NCBI GenBank assembly: GCA_020073005.1
Contig: JAIQFX010000039.1
Span: 1-53,887 of the forward strand
DNA: 53,887 nt
Source of the DNA: Terriglobia bacterium
GTDB lineage: Bacteria; Acidobacteriota; Vicinamibacteria; Vicinamibacterales; CAVVIG01
Direction: 5' to 3'
Position numbers and translations under genes: made by a program. The notes under the pieces were generated by a model. The model worked only from the letters and a program-made list of their open reading frames with translations, did not search any database and was not told where the DNA came from. Below, piece after piece: positions 26,486 through 34,569 of the stretch; within the stretch, counting starts at the first letter, position 1; each line of letters opens with the position of its first letter.

Positions 26486-27523
26486 CTAACGCGCAGTCCC
26501 GACGGGTTGCGCGGTCGGCGCGTCGGCAGTGACGGGTTTCAGGAACGGCATCAGCTTGCGGAGGCGCACGCCGACCTGCTCGATGAGGTGGTTCCGATCC
26601 GCCTCGCGCTGCTTGTTGAACCAGGGACGGCCGGCTTCGTTCTCGGCGATCCAGTCCCTGGCGTACTTGCCGCTCTGGATGTCGGCGAGCATCTGCTTCA
26701 TCGCGCGGCGCGTTTCAGCAGTCACGATCTTCGGCCCGCCCGTGTAGTCGCCGTGCTCGGCCGTGTCGCTGACCGAGTAGCGCATGTAGTTCAGCCCGCC
26801 CTGGTAGATGAGATCGACGATGAGCTTCAGCTCGTGCAGGCATTCGAAGTACGCAATCTCGGGCTGGTAGCCGGCTTCGACGAGCGTCTCGAATCCCGCC
26901 TTGATCAGCGCGCTCACGCCGCCGCAGAGCACGGCCTGCTCGCCGAACAAATCGGTCTCGGTCTCCTCGGCGAACGTCGTCTCGATCACGCCGGCGCGCG
27001 TCACGCCGATGCCCTTCGCGTACGACAGCGTCAGCGCGCGCGCCTTGCCGGTCGCGTCCTGATGGACCGCGAACAGCGCCGGCGTCCCCGCGCCCTCGAC
27101 GTACAGCTCGCGGACCCGGTGTCCCGGCGATTTCGGCGCCACCATCGCGACGTCGAGGTCCTTGCGCGGCGTGATCGCGCCGAAGCGGATGTTGAACCCG
27201 TGGGCGAACATCAGCATGCTGCCCGGCTTCAGGTTCGGCTCGATGTCCTCGCGATAGATCTTCCCCTGCACGTGATCGGGAATCAGGATCATCACGACGT
27301 CGGCCCACTTCACGACGTCGGCGACCTCGCCGACCGTGAGGCCGGCCGCCTGCGCCTTGGCACGCGACCGGCTCGTCGCCGGCAGCCCGACGCGGACGTC
27401 CACGCCGCTGTCCTTCAAATTGAGCGCGTGCGCATGCCCCTGAGATCCGTACCCAATGATCGCGACCTTGCGCGCCTGAATCAGCGAGAGGTCCGCCGCA
27501 TCGTCGTAATACATGGTCGCCAT
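26486..27523 (-). CDS. ilvC: Ketol-acid reductoisomerase
   Basis: Second common step of valine/leucine/isoleucine synthesis: isomerises and reduces acetolactate with Mg and NADPH. 345 residues, class I length. Rossmann motif [21 protein letters not shown]; the Arg/Ser-rich loop ([11 protein letters not shown]) suits NADPH; metal ligands in [10 protein letters not shown] and [17 protein letters not shown]. The ATG at 27523 has AGGA six bases upstream. Last gene of pheA-ilvD-ilvB-ilvN-ilvC. Confidence 0.96.
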
Positions 27524-27570: not shown

Positions 27571-28134
27571 TTATACCGACCCGTGACTCACATCGCCGCC
27601 CGACTCCGCCGCCACGGGCGCCGGCCGCGACGGCGGCGCCACCGACCTGCGCGCCGACGACGCGCCGCGCGCCATCGCGACGCGGCCCGTCCGGACCATC
27701 TCGACCACGCCGTAGGGACGAAGCACTTCGAGCAGACTGTCGATCTTGTCTTCCGTGCCCGTCGTCTCGATGACGAGCGACTCCGGGCTCACGTCGACAA
27801 TGCGCGCGCGGTAGACGTCCACGAGCTGCATGACGTGCGTCCGCGCCTCGCCCGTCGCCGCTACCTTTATTAATGCAAGGTCCCTCGCGATCGACGCCGC
27901 GGCGGTGATGTTGTCGACGCGCCTGCACGGAACGAGTTTGTACAAGTGCGCTTCGAGCCGGCGCGCGCCGTACTCGTCGGTGTCGACGACCACCGTCATT
28001 CGCGAGACGCCGGGCGTCTCGGTGTGACCGACCGTCAGCGATTCGATGTTGAACGCGCGGCGCCGGAACAGCGAGGAGACGCGGTTCAGCACGCCCGGCT
28101 TGTTGTCGACGTAAACCGCGAAGGTGTGCAGCAT
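27571..28134 (-). CDS. ilvN: Acetolactate synthase, regulatory subunit
   Basis: Small ACT-domain subunit that confers valine feedback on acetolactate synthase. 187 residues. ACT domain at about 3-75 ([32 protein letters not shown]) and a second ACT-like half to about 155 ([26 protein letters not shown]). The last 30 or so residues are a Ser/Pro/Ala-rich tail beyond the usual end. Directly after ilvB, with a heptamer array running from the ilvB stop almost to this ATG. Confidence 0.94.
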
Positions 28135-28136
28135 AA

Positions 28137-28171
28137 AGCCCTCAGCTTTCAGTGGTCCGCGCTCAGTCGGC
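28137..28171. repeat. Heptamer repeat at the ilvB stop / ilvN start junction
   Basis: In register on the plus strand: AGCCCTC, AGCTTTC, AGTGGTC, CGCGCTC, AGTCGGC. The ilvB stop (28163-28165) lies in it and the array ends two bases before the ilvN ATG. The AGCTTTC unit is shared with the array upstream of pheA. Confidence 0.65.
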
Positions 28172-29872
28172 CGCGGTCTCGACGATCGGCGACGGCCGCC
28201 GGATCATCTTGTGAAGGTCCGCGCCGGCCGGGACCATCGGGTACACCGAGTCTTCCTGCTCGACCTGGAAATCGATCAACGCGGCGCGCTTCAGCCGGCG
28301 TGCGGCCTCGACGGCGTCGTTCACGTCCGCGCGGCGCGTGACGGTGGCGGCCGCGATGCCGAAGGCTTCGGCGAGCTTCGCGAAGTTCGGTCCGCTGATC
28401 GGCGTCGCCGCGTAGCGCTTGTCGTAGAAGAACTCCTGCCACTGCCGGACCATGCCGAGGTAGCCGTTGTTGATGATCGCGACGTTGATGTCCAGCTTCT
28501 CCTGCACGACCGTCGCGAGCTCGGCCATCGTCATCTGGAACCCGCCGTCGCCGACGACAACCCACACTTCCGACTCCGGGCACGCGATCTTGGCGCCGAT
28601 CGCCGCCGGCAGCGCGAAGCCCATCGTGCCGAGACCGCCCGACGTGATCAGCGACCGCGACCGGTTGTGCTTGTAGTACTGCGCCTCCCACATCTGATGC
28701 TGGCCGACGTCGGTCACGACCAGCGCCTCGCCGTGCGTGAGGCGCCACAGATCGTTGATGACGTGCGCCGCGTACAGATGCCCGTCGTCGGGAAGATTCT
28801 GAATGTCGCGCACGGCCGAGTCGCCTTTGAGCGAATCGATCCGCGCCAGCCACGCCGCGCGCGTGCCAGGCGCGACGACGTGCGGCAGCCACTCGTCCAC
28901 CGCGCTGCGCAGATCCTTCGCGATGGCGACGTCGACGCGCACGTTCTTGTTCAGCTCGGCGCGGTCGATGTCGACGTGAATCTTGCGGGCCTCGCGCGCG
29001 TACGTCGTGAGATTGCCGGTGACGCGATCGTCGAAGCGCATGCCCAGGGCGATCAGAAGGTCCGCCTCCTGAATGGCGTGGTTGACCCACGCCTCGCCGT
29101 GCATGCCCATCATGCCGAGGTTCAACGGGTGCGCCGCCGCGACGCCGCCGATGCCGAGGAGCGTCACCGCGATCGGAATCTGGCCGCGCTCTGCCAGCGC
29201 GACGATCTCGCGCTCCGCGCCCGAGAGCATCACGCCGTGGCCCGCGAGAATCAGCGGACGCTCGGCGGCGTTGATCAGCGCGATCGCGTCGCGGGCGTCG
29301 CCGTCGCCGGGCAGCGCCTCGTCGAGCGCTTCGCTCAGATTCGGCCGCGCGGCGTCCCAATCCACCTCGCAGCTGGCCTGCTGCGCGTCCTTCGTGATGT
29401 CGACCAGCACCGGTCCAGGACGTCCCGAGCGCGCGACGGCGAACGCTTCGAGCACGGCGGGCGCGACGTCCTCGGCGCTCGTCACCAGATAATTGTGTTT
29501 GGTAATCGGCAGCGTGATGCCGGTGATGTCGGTTTCCTGGAACGCATCGGATCCGATCAGCTTGCTGCCGACCTGACCGGTGATGCAGACGATGGGCGAC
29601 GAGTCCATCATCGCGGTCGCGATCCCGGTGACCATGTTCGTCGCGCCCGGGCCCGAGGTCGCGATCGCGACGCCGACCTTGCCGCTGGCGCGCGCGTAGC
29701 CGTCGGCCATGTGCGTCGCGCCCTGCTCGTGGCGCACGAGGACGTGGCGGATCGGGTAGCCGAGCATCGCGTCGTACGCGGGCAGAATCGCGCCGCCCGG
29801 ATAGCCGAACACGTCGGTCACGCCCTCGCGGACCAGCGATTCCCAGAGAATCTGTGCTCCCGTGCGCTTCAT
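28163..29872 (-). CDS. ilvB: Acetolactate synthase, catalytic subunit
   Basis: ThDP/FAD enzyme joining two pyruvates, or pyruvate and 2-oxobutyrate. 569 residues. The catalytic Glu is in RHEQGATHMADGYARA; the ThDP-Mg site is VVGDGGFQMTMAELATVVQ..NVAIINN; middle FAD-binding domain about 190-340. The ATG at 29872 is preceded by GAGG at six bases; the longer frame upstream overlaps the ilvD end and lacks similarity. Lies 16 bp after ilvD. Confidence 0.95.
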   Translation of the reverse strand: MKRTGAQILWESLVREGVTDVFGYPGGAILPAYDAMLGYPIRHVLVRHEQGATHMADGYARASGKVGVAIATSGPGATNMVTGIATAMMDSSPIVCITGQVGSKLIGSDAFQETDITGITLPITKHNYLVTSAEDVAPAVLEAFAVARSGRPGPVLVDITKDAQQASCEVDWDAARPNLSEALDEALPGDGDARDAIALINAAERPLILAGHGVMLSGAEREIVALAERGQIPIAVTLLGIGGVAAAHPLNLGMMGMHGEAWVNHAIQEADLLIALGMRFDDRVTGNLTTYAREARKIHVDIDRAELNKNVRVDVAIAKDLRSAVDEWLPHVVAPGTRAAWLARIDSLKGDSAVRDIQNLPDDGHLYAAHVINDLWRLTHGEALVVTDVGQHQMWEAQYYKHNRSRSLITSGGLGTMGFALPAAIGAKIACPESEVWVVVGDGGFQMTMAELATVVQEKLDINVAIINNGYLGMVRQWQEFFYDKRYAATPISGPNFAKLAEAFGIAAATVTRRADVNDAVEAARRLKRAALIDFQVEQEDSVYPMVPAGADLHKMIRRPSPIVETAAD

Positions 29873-29888
29873 AGACAACCTCGAGATT

Positions 29889-31550
29889 TCATCCCGTGAC
29901 CGCTCCCATCGATGCCGACGAGACCATCCGCGCATATTTCGCCATCACGCCCGACGGATAGCGCGGCTGCGGCGCGTGCCACGCCGCGAGACGGTCCTTC
30001 AGTTCCTTGTCGGTCAATTCGATGTCGAGTGTTCGCGCGGCGACATCGATGACAACCGTGTCCCCGTTGCGAAGGGCGGCGATCGGTCCGCCCCGCGACG
30101 CTTCCGGCGCGATGTGCCCGACCATGAAGCCGCGCGTCGCGCCCGAGAAGCGGCCGTCGGTGATGAGCGCGACCGAATCGCCGAGGCCCGCGCCCACGAT
30201 CGCGCCGGTGACGGCGAGCATCTCGCGCATCCCAGGTCCCCCGCTCGGCCCTTCGTAACGAATGACGACGACGTCGCCGGCCTTGATGGCCTGATGCTGC
30301 ACGGCTTCGAACGCGGCTTCCTCGCTGTCGAACACGCGCGCCGGACCGCGATGCCGCACGCGCTCGGTGCCCGAGACCTTCATCACTGCGCCTTCTGGCG
30401 CGAGACTGCCCTTCAGAATCACGAGACCGCCGCTCTTCTTGATCGGCGCGTTGAGCGGCCGCACGACTTCCTGTCCCGGCGTCTCGACGGCCTGCGCGGC
30501 TTCGACTGCCAGCGATCGCCCGGTCACGGTGATCGCGGAACCGTCGACGGCGCCCGCCTCGACCAGTCGCTTCGCCACCAGCGCACTGCCGCCCGCCGCG
30601 TACAGATCCGTCGCCACGAAGCGGCCGGACGGTTTCAAATCGGCGAGCAGGGGCACGCGCGCGCTGATGCGATCGAAGTCCGCGAGCGACAGCTCGACGC
30701 CGGCTTCGTGCGCGATGGCAATCAAGTGCAGGACCGCGTTCGTCGATCCGCCGGTCGTCGCAACGGACGCGATCGCGTTCTCGATCGACTTGCGGGTGAT
30801 GATGTCCCGCGGCCGCAGCCCGGCGCGGACGAGCGCCATCACGCGCTCGCCGGCAAGCCGCGCCACCGCGGCTTTCTTGGGATCGGTGGCCGGCACGCTG
30901 CCGCTCCCGAGCGCCGCGATCCCGAGGAACTCGCTCGCGATCGCCATCGTGTTCGCCGTGAACTGCCCGCCGCACGCGCCCGCGCCCGGGCACGCGTCGG
31001 CTTCCAGTTGACAGAGATCGGCGTCGCTCACGGTGCCGGCGGCGTTCGCGCCGACGGCTTCGAAGACTTCCTGAATCGTCACCTGGGTCCCATGCCAGTG
31101 TCCCGGCGCGATCGACCCGCCGTAGAGCACGAGACCCGGGACGTTGAGCCGCGCGAGCGCCATGACGCCGCCCGGGATCGTCTTGTCGCAGCCGACGAGC
31201 ACGACGACGCCGTCGAAGCCGTTGCCGCGGGTCACCAGCTCGATCGAATCCGCGATCACCTCGCGGCTGACAAGCGACGCGCGCATGCCTTCGGTCCCCA
31301 TCGTGATGCCGTCGGAGATCGACACGGTGTTGAACTCCATCGGCGTCCCGCCGGCCGCGCGGATGCCGTCCTTCACGTGCACCGCCAGATCGCGCAGGTG
31401 GTAGTTGCACGGACCGATCTCGATCCACGTGTTCGCCACGCCGATGAGGGGCTTCTTCAGGTCCGCGTCGGAGAAACCGACGGCCTTGAGCATCGCGCGC
31501 GCCGGCGCGCGGCTCGGTCCGGTCGTCAACGGATTCGATCGGTCGGTCAC
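29889..31550 (-). CDS. ilvD: Dihydroxy-acid dehydratase
   Basis: Iron-sulfur dehydratase forming the 2-oxo acids of valine and isoleucine. 553 residues. Cluster cysteines are in VGCDKTIPG and [17 protein letters not shown]; a third (near residue 50) is in the family position GPCNYHL. The GTG start overlaps the pheA TGA (GTGA), so the two are probably translationally coupled. Normal length. Confidence 0.96.
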
Positions 31551-32401
31551 GACACCACCTCAAAGGGATCCGGCAGCCAGCCCTCGTGCGTCTTCCAGCT
31601 CGCGTAGGACCCGAGGGTCCGCAGCATCGGCGCGAACTCGGCCAGGTGCGCGAGCGCGCGCGTGCACCGCAGCTCGTCGCGCGCCGCGGCGAGGTCCACG
31701 TAGAAGAGGTACTCCCACGGCCGGCCCGGAATCGGCCGTGACTCGAGCTTGGTGAGGTCCACGCCGCGCAGCGCGAACACGCTCAGCGCCTTGAACAGCG
31801 ACCCGGGCTCGTTCGGCAGCGTGAACACGATGCTCGTCTTGTCCGGCACGGCGTCCGGCAGCGACTGGCGGCCGATGAGCAGGAAGCGCGTGATGTTGTC
31901 GTCGAAATCCTGAATCGACGCGGCGAGCGACGTCAGGCCGAACACGTCGCCGGCGCGAGCGGACGCAATCGCGGCCGCGTCCTTCAGTCCCGCGTCCGCC
32001 ACCATCTTGGCGCTGCCCGCGGTGTCGTAGGTCGCGATGATCTCGACGCCGGTCAGCGTGCGCAGGAAGCGCTCGCACTGCGCGAGGCCCTGCGGGTGCG
32101 AATACACGCGCTTGAGGCCGGCCATCGTCGCGCCCGGCAGCGCGAGCAGGTGATGCACGACCGGAAGCTCCACCTCGGCCACGATCGGCAGCTGGTGCTC
32201 GAGCAGCAGGTCGTAGTTGCGATGGATGCTCCCGCCGATCGAGTTCTCGATCGGCACGACGCCGTACGCGGCCTTGCCGGACTCGACCGCATCGAAGACT
32301 TCCTCGAAGCTGCGGCACGGAATGAGCTCCGCGTGATGGTCGACGCGGCGCGCCGCCGCCTCGCTGAACGCCCCGGGTTCGCCTTGATATGCGATCTTCA
32401 T
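31547..32401 (-). CDS. pheA: Prephenate dehydratase with ACT domain
   Basis: Converts prephenate to phenylpyruvate in phenylalanine synthesis. 284 residues: dehydratase domain about 1-180 ([21 protein letters not shown], and catalytic NITRFLLIG), then an ACT domain for Phe feedback ([27 protein letters not shown]). No chorismate mutase domain. It is the promoter-proximal gene of an ilv operon. The upstream leader encodes Val/Leu/Ile codons and no Phe codon, so its transcription is probably set by branched-chain amino acids. A heptamer array lies just upstream. Confidence 0.95.
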
Positions 32402-32408
32402 AAACAGA

Positions 32409-32436
32409 AGCTCTCAGCTTTCAGCTGTCAGCTCTC
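32409..32436. repeat. 4 x 7-nt repeat in the pheA 5' untranslated region
   Basis: Four heptamers on the plus strand: AGCTCTC, AGCTTTC, AGCTGTC, AGCTCTC. On the message they read GAGAGCT/GACAGCT/GAAAGCT/GAGAGCT, purine-rich, between the attenuator and the pheA ATG. Confidence 0.85.
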
Positions 32437-32459: not shown

Positions 32460-32490
32460 AAAAAGGCCATCACCCCGCAGATGATGGCCT
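32460..32490 (-). terminator. Attenuator terminator upstream of pheA-ilvDBNC
   Basis: On the minus strand a 9-bp stem AGGCCATCA / TGATGGCCT with a 9-base loop, followed by TTTT (five Ts counting the stem end). It lies 24 bases after the leader peptide stop and 59 bases before pheA. Its place in front of the operon, not behind one, marks it as an attenuator. Confidence 0.85.
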
Positions 32491-32513
32491 CGGTTTCTCG
32501 TGTGTCGATGCCC

Positions 32514-32573
32514 TCACCCGCCGGCGCGCTGGCGCCGAATGACGACGAGGACGGGGACGGGCCTCAGCGACAT
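32514..32573 (-). CDS. Branched-chain amino acid leader peptide
   Basis: Too short for routine gene finding: 19 codons and a TGA, reading MSLRPVPVLVVIRRQRAGG. Six of seven consecutive codons at positions 6-12 are Val/Leu/Ile (VPVLVVI). A 6-bp hairpin, CGGCGC-CAGC-GCGCCG (32522-32537), starts on the base after the Ile codon, so a ribosome stalled there would prevent it from forming. The terminator follows 24 bases later. The ATG is seven bases after TAATGT and has no Shine-Dalgarno, so the peptide is probably read from a leaderless or near-leaderless message. Expected to act as a sensor of charged Val/Leu/Ile tRNA, as in enteric ilv leaders. Confidence 0.8.
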   Translation of the reverse strand: MSLRPVPVLVVIRRQRAGG

Positions 32574-32579
32574 GACCCG

Positions 32580-32612
32580 GACATTAGAGCGCCTGGGCGC
32601 CCTAGAAGTCAA
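32580..32612 (-). promoter_or_regulatory. Promoter of the attenuated pheA-ilv operon
   Basis: TTGACT (-35, 32607-32612), 18-bp spacer, TCTAAT (-10, 32583-32588), each five of six to the sigma-70 consensus. An overlapping TAATGT (32580-32585) would place the start exactly at the leader ATG. The spacer contains the palindrome GGGCGCCC, a possible operator. The flank back to 32640 shows no strong terminator for the gene before. Confidence 0.75.
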
Positions 32613-32640
32613 ATTGATAATCCTTACCGGATCATAACTT

Positions 32641-34569
32641 CTACTGCTGGACCACCACCGGCAGCTCGATGCAACTGGCCTGGCCGGCGGCGTGGTACAC
32701 GCGCTGAGTCGCTTTCCGGAAGTCCTCCGGCCGCGCGAAGAAGATGTTGCGGACGAAGGTCTGCGGATTGCGGTCGTAGAGCGGGAACCAGCTCGACTGG
32801 ATCTGCACCATCATCCGGTGCCCGGGCAGGAACGCGTGGTTCGCGTTCGGCAGCGCGAACCGGTACGGCAGCGGCGTGTTGGCCGCGATCGGCTTCGCGT
32901 CCGCGAACCCCTCGCGGTACCGCCCGCGGAAAATGTCAGCCGACACCATCAGCTGATAGCCGCCCATCTCCGGCTGCCCCGCCACCTCGTCCGGATAGAC
33001 GTCAATCACCTTGACGACCCAGTCGGCGTCGGTGCCGCTCGTCGACGCGATGAGATTCACGATCGGCTGGCCGCTGATCTTCACGGGCGTCTCGAGCACG
33101 TCGGACGAAAACGCCAGCACGTCGGGACGCCCCGACGCTTCACGCTGATCGTCGACGAGCCAGCGCGCCCAATACGCGCCGCCGGCCGGCTGATTCGGCC
33201 GCACGCGATACGGCACCGGCTTCGCCGGGTCCGACACGTACTCCTCGTATGGCGATGCGGCGCTCGCGGCAGCGTCGAACGTCGCCTTCAGGCCCGCGCC
33301 CAGATACAGCGGCGTGGACTTGATAGCGCAGCCGCTCGCGCAACCGGCGGGCCACGCCGACAAGCGACGCCATGTGTTCGTGCCGGTCTCGTACGCCGTC
33401 ACCGGCGCGACGTCCATCGCCGGCGCTTCATCCTTTAAGTAATGGTCGAGAAACGGACGCAGGATCGCCTGCCGGAAATACAGCGCCGTATCGCTTCCGA
33501 ACTTCAGCGCGCCCAGCGTGCTGCCGTCGCCGATCTCCTGCCCGTGATGCCATGGCCCCAGCACGAGAAAGACCTTGTCGTGGGCGGTGTCCTTCGGCTC
33601 GATCGCCTTGTAGACCGCGGGCGCGCCGTAGATGTCCTCCTGATCCCAGAGGCTGTGCACGAGCATCACCGGGACCTGCAGCGGCAGCGCGGCGAGCAGC
33701 GTGTCCACCGCCTGCTCGCGCCAGAACGTGTCGTAGCCGGGATGCTCGATCAACTTTTGCCAGAAGCCCATCTGATCCAGCCCGCGACGCCGGCCCAGTT
33801 CGCCCGCCGTCCCGGCTTGCATGTACGTGTCGTAATCGTCGTGATGGAGCGTGAACCACCGCGCGTCGCCGTCGTTGGCGCGGGTCCCTTCCTGCTCGTA
33901 GATGTACGGCATCATCTGCTGGCGGAACGCGCCGTTGTGGAACCAGTCGTCGCCCATCCATCCGTCGACCATCGGGTTCATCGGGACGGAGACCTTCAGC
34001 GCGGGATGCGGGTTGACGAGCGCCATCAGCGGCAGAAATCCGTCGTACGAAATGCCGAGGATGCCGACCTTGCCGTTCGTCTCGCGGATGTTCTTCACCA
34101 GCCAGTCGATCGTGTCGTACGTGTCGGTCGCGTGATCGACCGGCGTCGGGTTCAGCGGGCCGCGCAGCGGGCGATTCATCACGTAATCACCTTCGGATCC
34201 GTACTTGCCGCGGATGTCCTGGACGACGCGGATGTAGCCGCCCTCGACAATGACGTCGACGGCGTTGTCGTAGCCCTGGAGGATCGGGCCGAGGTGCGCG
34301 CTCGGCGCGTGCGACGTGAGATCGGTCGCGTTGTACGGCGTCCGCGTCAGCAGGATCGGCGCCCGGCGCGCGCCTTTCGGGACGATGATGACGGTGTGCA
34401 GTTTGACGCCGTCGCGCATCGGGATCATCACGTCGCGCTTGACGTAGTCGAACTCGTCGGCCGGACGCGTCAGCCGCGCGGGCGTTTCGCTCGGCAACGC
34501 AGGGTACTGCTGCTGCGCGAGGATCGCCAGCGGCGCGCACAGCAGGGCGGCAGCGAGAGACGTCCTCAA
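32641..34569 (-). CDS. Secreted CocE/NonD-family hydrolase (alpha-amino acid ester hydrolase-like)
   Basis: 642 residues. Signal peptide at about 1-18 (LAAALLCAPLAILAQ). Alpha/beta-hydrolase S15-type domain with nucleophile motif GISYDG, a WDQED region for the acid and GPWHHG for the His; the C-terminal jelly-roll domain starts near 430. The family cleaves beta-lactam side chains, acyl esters or X-Pro peptides; substrate not determinable. The start is TTG, inside an octamer array that also provides GAGGA upstream and runs from the dcd stop. Last gene of its run. Confidence 0.85.
   Translation of the reverse strand: MRTSLAAALLCAPLAILAQQQYPALPSETPARLTRPADEFDYVKRDVMIPMRDGVKLHTVIIVPKGARRAPILLTRTPYNATDLTSHAPSAHLGPILQGYDNAVDVIVEGGYIRVVQDIRGKYGSEGDYVMNRPLRGPLNPTPVDHATDTYDTIDWLVKNIRETNGKVGILGISYDGFLPLMALVNPHPALKVSVPMNPMVDGWMGDDWFHNGAFRQQMMPYIYEQEGTRANDGDARWFTLHHDDYDTYMQAGTAGELGRRRGLDQMGFWQKLIEHPGYDTFWREQAVDTLLAALPLQVPVMLVHSLWDQEDIYGAPAVYKAIEPKDTAHDKVFLVLGPWHHGQEIGDGSTLGALKFGSDTALYFRQAILRPFLDHYLKDEAPAMDVAPVTAYETGTNTWRRLSAWPAGCASGCAIKSTPLYLGAGLKATFDAAASAASPYEEYVSDPAKPVPYRVRPNQPAGGAYWARWLVDDQREASGRPDVLAFSSDVLETPVKISGQPIVNLIASTSGTDADWVVKVIDVYPDEVAGQPEMGGYQLMVSADIFRGRYREGFADAKPIAANTPLPYRFALPNANHAFLPGHRMMVQIQSSWFPLYDRNPQTFVRNIFFARPEDFRKATQRVYHAAGQASCIELPVVVQQ

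Follow-up and report, generated by a model that had tools for sequence, protein, structure and literature searches.

The window that we analyzed is a stretch of 53,887 nucleotides from an Acidobacteriota genome of 5.86 Mb; judged by pheA, the named assemblies most closely related to it are two Acidobacteria from groundwater (96 and 95% identity). An operon of five genes lies on its minus strand, each gene matching its NCBIfam model above cut-off, with a 4-base overlap between pheA and ilvD.

31547..32401, minus strand: pheA, prephenate dehydratase, the first gene of the operon (PRK11898)
29889..31550, minus strand: ilvD, dihydroxy-acid dehydratase (TIGR00110)
28163..29875, minus strand: ilvB, acetolactate synthase large subunit (TIGR00118)
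27571..28134, minus strand: ilvN, acetolactate synthase small subunit (TIGR00119)
26486..27523, minus strand: ilvC, ketol-acid reductoisomerase (TIGR00465)

Upstream on the same strand is a gene for a CocE/NonD hydrolase that ends at 32641. Between it and pheA we find the following features.

32613..32638, minus strand: AT-rich box GTTATGATCCGGTAAGGATTATCAAT, just 5' of the -35, possibly an UP element or operator
32583..32612, minus strand: promoter TTGACT-18-TCTAAT, from the sequence, with its end 9 nt before the leader ATG
32514..32573, minus strand: leader reading frame MSLRPVPVLVVIRRQRAGG, an open reading frame of 19 codons with TGA stop
32538..32558, minus strand: control codons GTC CCC GTC CTC GTC GTC ATT (VPVLVVI, codons 6–12), from the sequence and the Val enrichment of the family
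32551..32562, minus strand: candidate region 1, which the fold of the window predicts to pair with region 2 in the untranslated leader
32522..32537, minus strand: GC hairpin CGGCGC-CAGC-GCGCCG, from the sequence, within the leader frame and directly after the Ile codon
32506..32521, minus strand: region 2, the 5' arm of the antiterminator, GCGGGTGAGGGCATCG, spanning the leader stop codon, from folding and covariation over relatives
32477..32492, minus strand: region 3, CGAGGCCATCATCTGC, shared as the 3' arm of the antiterminator and the 5' arm of the terminator, from folding and the covariation of both helices
32460..32491, minus strand: the whole terminator
32460..32475, minus strand: region 4, the 3' arm of the terminator with the T tract TTTTT at 32460–32464, from terminator covariation

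The promoter, the 19-codon frame with its VPVLVVI segment and the GC hairpin had been proposed in a preliminary description of this DNA, and each lies where it was placed. The terminator followed by T residues is also present, with a corrected geometry: the stem contains 13 pairs (including G-U) rather than 9, and begins 22 nt rather than 24 nt after the leader stop. It runs into TTTTT and lies 58 nt before pheA. No antiterminator had been found by eye, but one exists, formed by the pairing of 32506–32521 with 32477–32492. With the ribosome modelled as stalled on the Val/Ile codons the antiterminator fold has an energy of -19.7 kcal/mol, and the terminator -19.8 to -20.3 kcal/mol. Close to the start of pheA there are short degenerate direct repeats with an AGCTGA-like unit (32409–32435), and longer arrays of such repeats lie upstream of pheA in loci L008, L018 and L021.

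Taken on its own, the window gives a modest signal. Of 2000 dinucleotide shuffles, 183 equalled the Val/Ile/Leu density of its leader and 142 the Val density, while 9 of 200 reached the folding energy computed for the leader as a whole. Arg codons were over-represented too in a frame-free test, as expected because the GTC runs are read in another frame. A generic scan of the window for promoter and terminator patterns listed neither this promoter nor any terminator; the promoter was missed because its -10 has no A at position 2. The composition of the window leader is by itself weak evidence, and it is the relatives that lift the site above chance. When a model was made from 17 loci of other genera, without the three sequences from the genus of the window, it recovered the site at E = 5.3e-11 within the window and at 5.7e-9 across the genome as a whole. 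At gathering scores no Rfam family matched the window or the 20 loci described below. When 281 bases were searched at E up to 10, three matches scored below their curated thresholds; these belong to eukaryotic families and were taken as chance.

We sought pheA in 193 genomes of the class and found it in 152. It was placed in 90 loci, and terminators were sought upstream in all of these by script; the upstream regions of 36 were read by eye, together with 12 further stretches or longer views. A leader and terminator precede pheA at 20 Acidobacteria loci, 18 of which are in the family of the window. Locus L042 was excluded from the 20, since it has a terminator and matches the model weakly but shows no clear leader. 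Among the 24 genomes of the family with pheA the element is present in 18 and absent at pheA in four, namely L004, L005, L014 and L089 (distant pheA). Two were not judged at the locus, L015 with 22 nt upstream and L018 with 397 nt containing repeats, and their genomes gave no model match among the matches listed. The pattern search of viral contigs gave 19 matching stretches, none of them encoding a pheA relative.

A promoter sequence T[TG]GACN-17/18-TNTAAT is found in 18 of the 20 pheA-linked loci and ends 8–13 nt before the leader ATG, so that a ribosome-binding site would have scarcely any space, or none, on the leader message. The transcript in the window is therefore probably leaderless or nearly so. 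An automatic promoter search before 29 attenuators not linked to pheA found one promoter, and we therefore make this suggestion for the pheA-linked set only. A sequence resembling the AT-rich box adjoins the -35 in relatives both with and without the attenuator.

The leaders of the 20 loci comprise 18–47 codons, with TGA as the stop in 18. We picked them manually, taking frames that start immediately downstream of the promoter, so that the frame is stop-free by construction. In the leader frame Val, Ile and Leu account for 229 of 624 codons, compared with 54 and 53 of 624 for the two alternative frames; at every one of the 20 loci the leader frame is the richest in these codons. Single-base codon differences between close relatives are synonymous in 77 cases and non-synonymous in 62 (77/139) where a synonymous share of 30% would be expected (p = 8e-10, though the sequence pairs are not independent); within the genus of the window there are 0 synonymous and 3 non-synonymous differences. 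A conserved frame of this length could mean that the leader peptide is a functional small protein, with the terminator merely setting the length of the transcript. Yet the leaders of distant relatives retain little beyond Val-rich stretches and the Gly codon before the stop (19 of 20 leaders), and leader composition shifts with the downstream operon (see below). We regard such a protein as very improbable.

The comparison also bears on a simpler explanation, that the hairpin is just the terminator of the hydrolase gene, with the promoter and frame incidental. That gene is on the same strand and ends 150 nt before the hairpin, as this would require. However, the combination of promoter, Val-rich frame and terminator persists where a different gene ends upstream (for example L009 and L012), an upstream hydrolase match occurs in only three of the 90 loci (L001, L006 and L008), and a core of identical type also precedes ilvD, hom and other genes. 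There is hardly any likelihood left for this explanation. The proposal of a branched-chain leader-peptide attenuator before pheA-ilvDBNC is supported by the comparison of relatives, in which the leader codons and both stems are kept while third positions drift.

Two further elements were considered as parts of the core. The GC hairpin had been described as a part of the attenuator; it is present, but lies outside the conserved core and among the 20 loci is confined to L001–L003, the genus of the window. A hairpin of regions 1 and 2, which in the textbook scheme would block the antiterminator when the leader is untranslated, is predicted in the window, and over the 20 loci does not stand out clearly from shuffles (Wilcoxon p = 0.053).

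In the 20 pheA-linked loci the antiterminator helix is 84.1% paired, falling to at most 51.6% when one arm is slid by 1–3 columns. Only one pair has changes on both sides in this set, where the helix hardly covaries. A wider model-based alignment has 98 rows (97 distinct), and its underlying model contained the terminator helix only. In the 97 distinct rows 8 of the 13 terminator pairs have changes on both sides, compared with 2.6 in shuffles (0 of 500 reach this). For the antiterminator 47 cells are changed on both sides, compared with 15.8 in shuffles (0 of 500 reach this) and at most 8 on sliding. These include the replacement of C-G by U-A at columns 6/63 in 10 rows from 7 families, and of A-U by G-C at columns 9/60 in 11 rows from 5 families. 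The two outermost pairs of the antiterminator contain 34 of the 47 cells; one of these pairs is not part of the terminator helix, and for the other less than half of the rows offer a partner in the terminator.

Relatedness can inflate counts of covariation, and for this reason we also confined the shuffling to within family and operon group, giving 27 strata and 96 distinct rows. One row (L222 1538–1606), an opposite-strand match, was kept in the unstratified tests and dropped here, and L202, for which the sequence analyzed includes no downstream gene, was grouped with ilvN by likeness. The antiterminator still exceeds the shuffles, with 47 cells compared with 36.1 and 81.3% paired compared with 79.6% (none of 1000 shuffles reached either value). 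Four antiterminator pairs are changed on both sides, a number not above shuffles, since 320 of 500 reach it, and the same is true in the stratified test; nor is the number of pair types (15; 364 of 500). It is cell counts, covariation score and percentage paired alone that exceed the shuffles for this helix. The locus has a leader frame carrying codons for the operon's products, its translation being predicted, a terminator before the first structural gene, and an antiterminator that excludes the terminator, though this last is not demonstrated by the number of covarying pairs.

The core is not restricted to pheA. The model made from the 20 loci matches 113 of the 193 class genomes at E up to 1; at least 85 match at 1e-4 or better and, among the matches listed, all are of the same order. 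In the phylum, 72 of 396 genomes drawn match at E up to 0.1. In a control of 20 genomes from other phyla, reached via pheA relatives, 15 genomes had hits with E no higher than 1, the strongest at 0.0025. We sorted 78 non-pheA matches, a part of the total, by their downstream gene. The same core precedes genes for IlvD, IlvB/IlvN, aspartokinase, homoserine dehydrogenase and citramalate synthase. The sequence GGRTGA occurs at the same place in 77 of the 78, which is partly imposed by the model and was not counted as evidence.

For 70 of the 78 loci we measured the enrichment of all 20 amino acids in frames closed by a stop within region 2, relative to shuffles. Left out were the ilvA, gltB and two MFS loci, L202, L240, L244 and L250. 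The z values are raised for every amino acid, because shuffling closes frames too. Before ilvD (21 loci) the highest is Val (z = 13.0), with Met at 10.9, Ile at 5.0 and Thr at 4.4; we take the Met value to reflect start codons. Leaders before ilvB or ilvN-ilvB (9 loci) have Val at 11.0 and Ile at 6.1, with Thr at 3.2 and Gly at 3.1. Thr dominates before homoserine dehydrogenase (18 loci; 9.5, with Met at 6.8) and aspartokinase (5 loci; 10.3), and Ile before citramalate synthase (3 loci; 8.9). The four loci of the ilvA/gltB/MFS group had no enrichment of any amino acid. Judged against the end products of these pathways, which are general knowledge, the leader codons fit the downstream genes in five groups of biosynthetic genes on sequence comparison, and because of this fit, our strongest argument, we take the frame to be the sensor. 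The fit has exceptions, as not all homoserine dehydrogenase leaders are Thr-rich: L181, L249 and L253 score 2/12 and L259 1/12. Thr and Met codons occur together in the leaders of L205, L243, L206 and L259 (the last mostly Met) before this gene, which is fitting for an enzyme at the branch to both amino acids.

A terminator switch could be operated otherwise, by an RNA-binding protein, a metabolite or uncharged tRNA, with the short frame not being the sensor. Region 3 is conserved beyond the needs of pairing, which would suit such a factor, and leader translation is predicted from sequence alone. But the leader amino acids suit the product of the operon in the five biosynthetic groups as well as the pheA-linked set, leader codon changes lean to the synonymous, and no T-box or riboswitch family of Rfam matched the window or the 20 loci. 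We therefore consider sensing of another kind unlikely, if somewhat less so than the two alternatives discussed above.

We consider it very likely that the element is a ribosome-mediated transcription attenuator sensing charged valine tRNA, with isoleucine and leucine of lesser importance, and that it controls pheA-ilvD-ilvB-ilvN-ilvC. Branched-chain sensing had been proposed in general terms; the frame is indeed rich in Val, Ile and Leu, with Val now indicated as the main amino acid sensed. The parts, the leader frame, both helices and the fit of codons to operon are supported by comparative analysis, whereas transcription start, ribosome stalling and response to amino acids are deduced from promoter spacing and the established mechanism. 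Transcription would start a few bases before the leader ATG. With valine plentiful, the ribosome would reach the TGA inside region 2 and cover that region; region 3 would then pair with region 4, and RNA polymerase would be stopped 58 nt before pheA. With valine scarce, the ribosome would stall on the GTC codons and leave region 2 free to pair with region 3, so that the terminator could not form and the operon would be transcribed. The switch would probably, therefore, stop transcription when valine is plentiful and let it run when valine is scarce. As judged from these comparisons it is a real attenuator, ordinary in its mechanism.

Other members of the family have other neighbors. LysR-like regulator genes in L188, L194, L219, L222 and L229 are preceded by the core and leaders rich in Val, Ile and Leu (5 loci; z = 4.8, 4.3 and 3.6, respectively). 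Leu-rich copies are found at L224 2786–2852 (in the genome of the window, with leader MFRGLLISLLLIGVGLRADARGVI), L180, L237, L238, L251, L255, L260, L246 and L254, with no recognized amino-acid gene downstream on that strand. For these nine the Leu z of 7.8 is biased, since they were picked after their leaders had been seen; for 12 of the 13 loci without an assigned gene, unpicked, Leu is 5.1 versus 3.3. It is possible that the Leu-rich copies are stand-alone or trans-acting transcripts. An ilvC-like gene converges on a copy of the core in L238, L269 and L270.

The word TGATGTAGC, only partly needed for pairing, is unevenly distributed. It occurs before ilvD in 3 of 21 loci, homoserine dehydrogenase in 11 of 18 and LysR genes in 2 of 5, in 7 of 9 Leu-coded copies and in 1 of 8 others; it is absent before ilvB/ilvN (0/9), aspartokinase (0/5), citramalate synthase (0/3) and pheA (0/20). 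This distribution suggests that part of the family may have arisen by copying. A bolder scheme would have a single Acidobacteriota core that was copied to positions before six or more kinds of amino-acid gene, with the leader codons (Val, Ile, Thr or Thr/Met) as its only retuning; Leu-coded copies lacking an amino-acid gene downstream would work in trans, either as terminated short transcripts or as peptides. We offer this as a tentative idea, more doubtful than probable.

The association with pheA has not been stable. In L004, L005 and L014, from the same family as the window, the promoter and AT-rich box lie directly before the pheA ATG, with leader and terminator absent. In other families the promoter box occurs with a pheA-ilvD or pheA-ilvB cluster that lacks the element, and elsewhere the element lies directly before ilvD with pheA at another place, for example in genome G178 (L032, L191). 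From these arrangements it follows that pheA and the attenuator were joined or separated more than once.

Ribosome stalling combined with an antiterminator and a terminator is the logic of the enteric ilv leaders. The likeness drawn earlier to those leaders is one of logic; here the operon begins with pheA. PMC10272879 names E. coli in this connection. The ilvB-II motif, or ilvBNC leader, of Corynebacterium has a short frame rich in branched-chain codons, a terminator and an antiterminator before a valine-linked operon, according to PMC10272879 and PMC11857589, and the latter discusses translation of this leader as that of a leaderless mRNA. It resembles the window in its Val-type frame, terminator and antiterminator, but is from another phylum, and the window matched no Rfam family. 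In the Corynebacterium leader the loop of the first stem takes part in the antiterminator (PMC10272879), whereas that of the window spans the leader stop codon, and the Acidobacteriota core, unlike the Corynebacterium leader, serves leaders of Val, Ile and Thr type.

PMC1262725 describes candidate ilvB leaders in Actinobacteria, where ilvB operons are preceded by terminators and by leader peptides containing Ile, Val and Leu codons, and calls their exact mode of regulation unclear; there, in contrast to the window, the codons overlap the terminator. The ilvB-OMG motif, with predicted frames rich in branched-chain and Thr codons in several phyla, also appears in PMC10272879; neither the window nor the 20 loci matched it at Rfam gathering scores, though Rfam 15 may not hold this motif. 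We found no description of this core family in the literature on leader-peptide attenuation in Acidobacteria or Acidobacteriota that was covered, which excludes most subscription journals. The mechanism is shared with the Actinobacteria and enteric leaders. The present elements are set apart by their family, by a stop codon located within the antiterminator arm and by a single core that serves several amino acids.

PMC2965389 states that, for phyla such as Acidobacteria, hardly any predicted attenuator had a function associated with it. An Acidobacteriota attenuator family now gains one, and the amino acid sensed may be read from the leader. The family provides a natural experiment in which one terminator/antiterminator core is combined with varied sensor codons, and in which close relatives keep the promoter without the cassette. 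In the family of the window, the arrangement would put the synthesis of phenylalanine, through the prephenate dehydratase encoded by pheA, under the control of valine.
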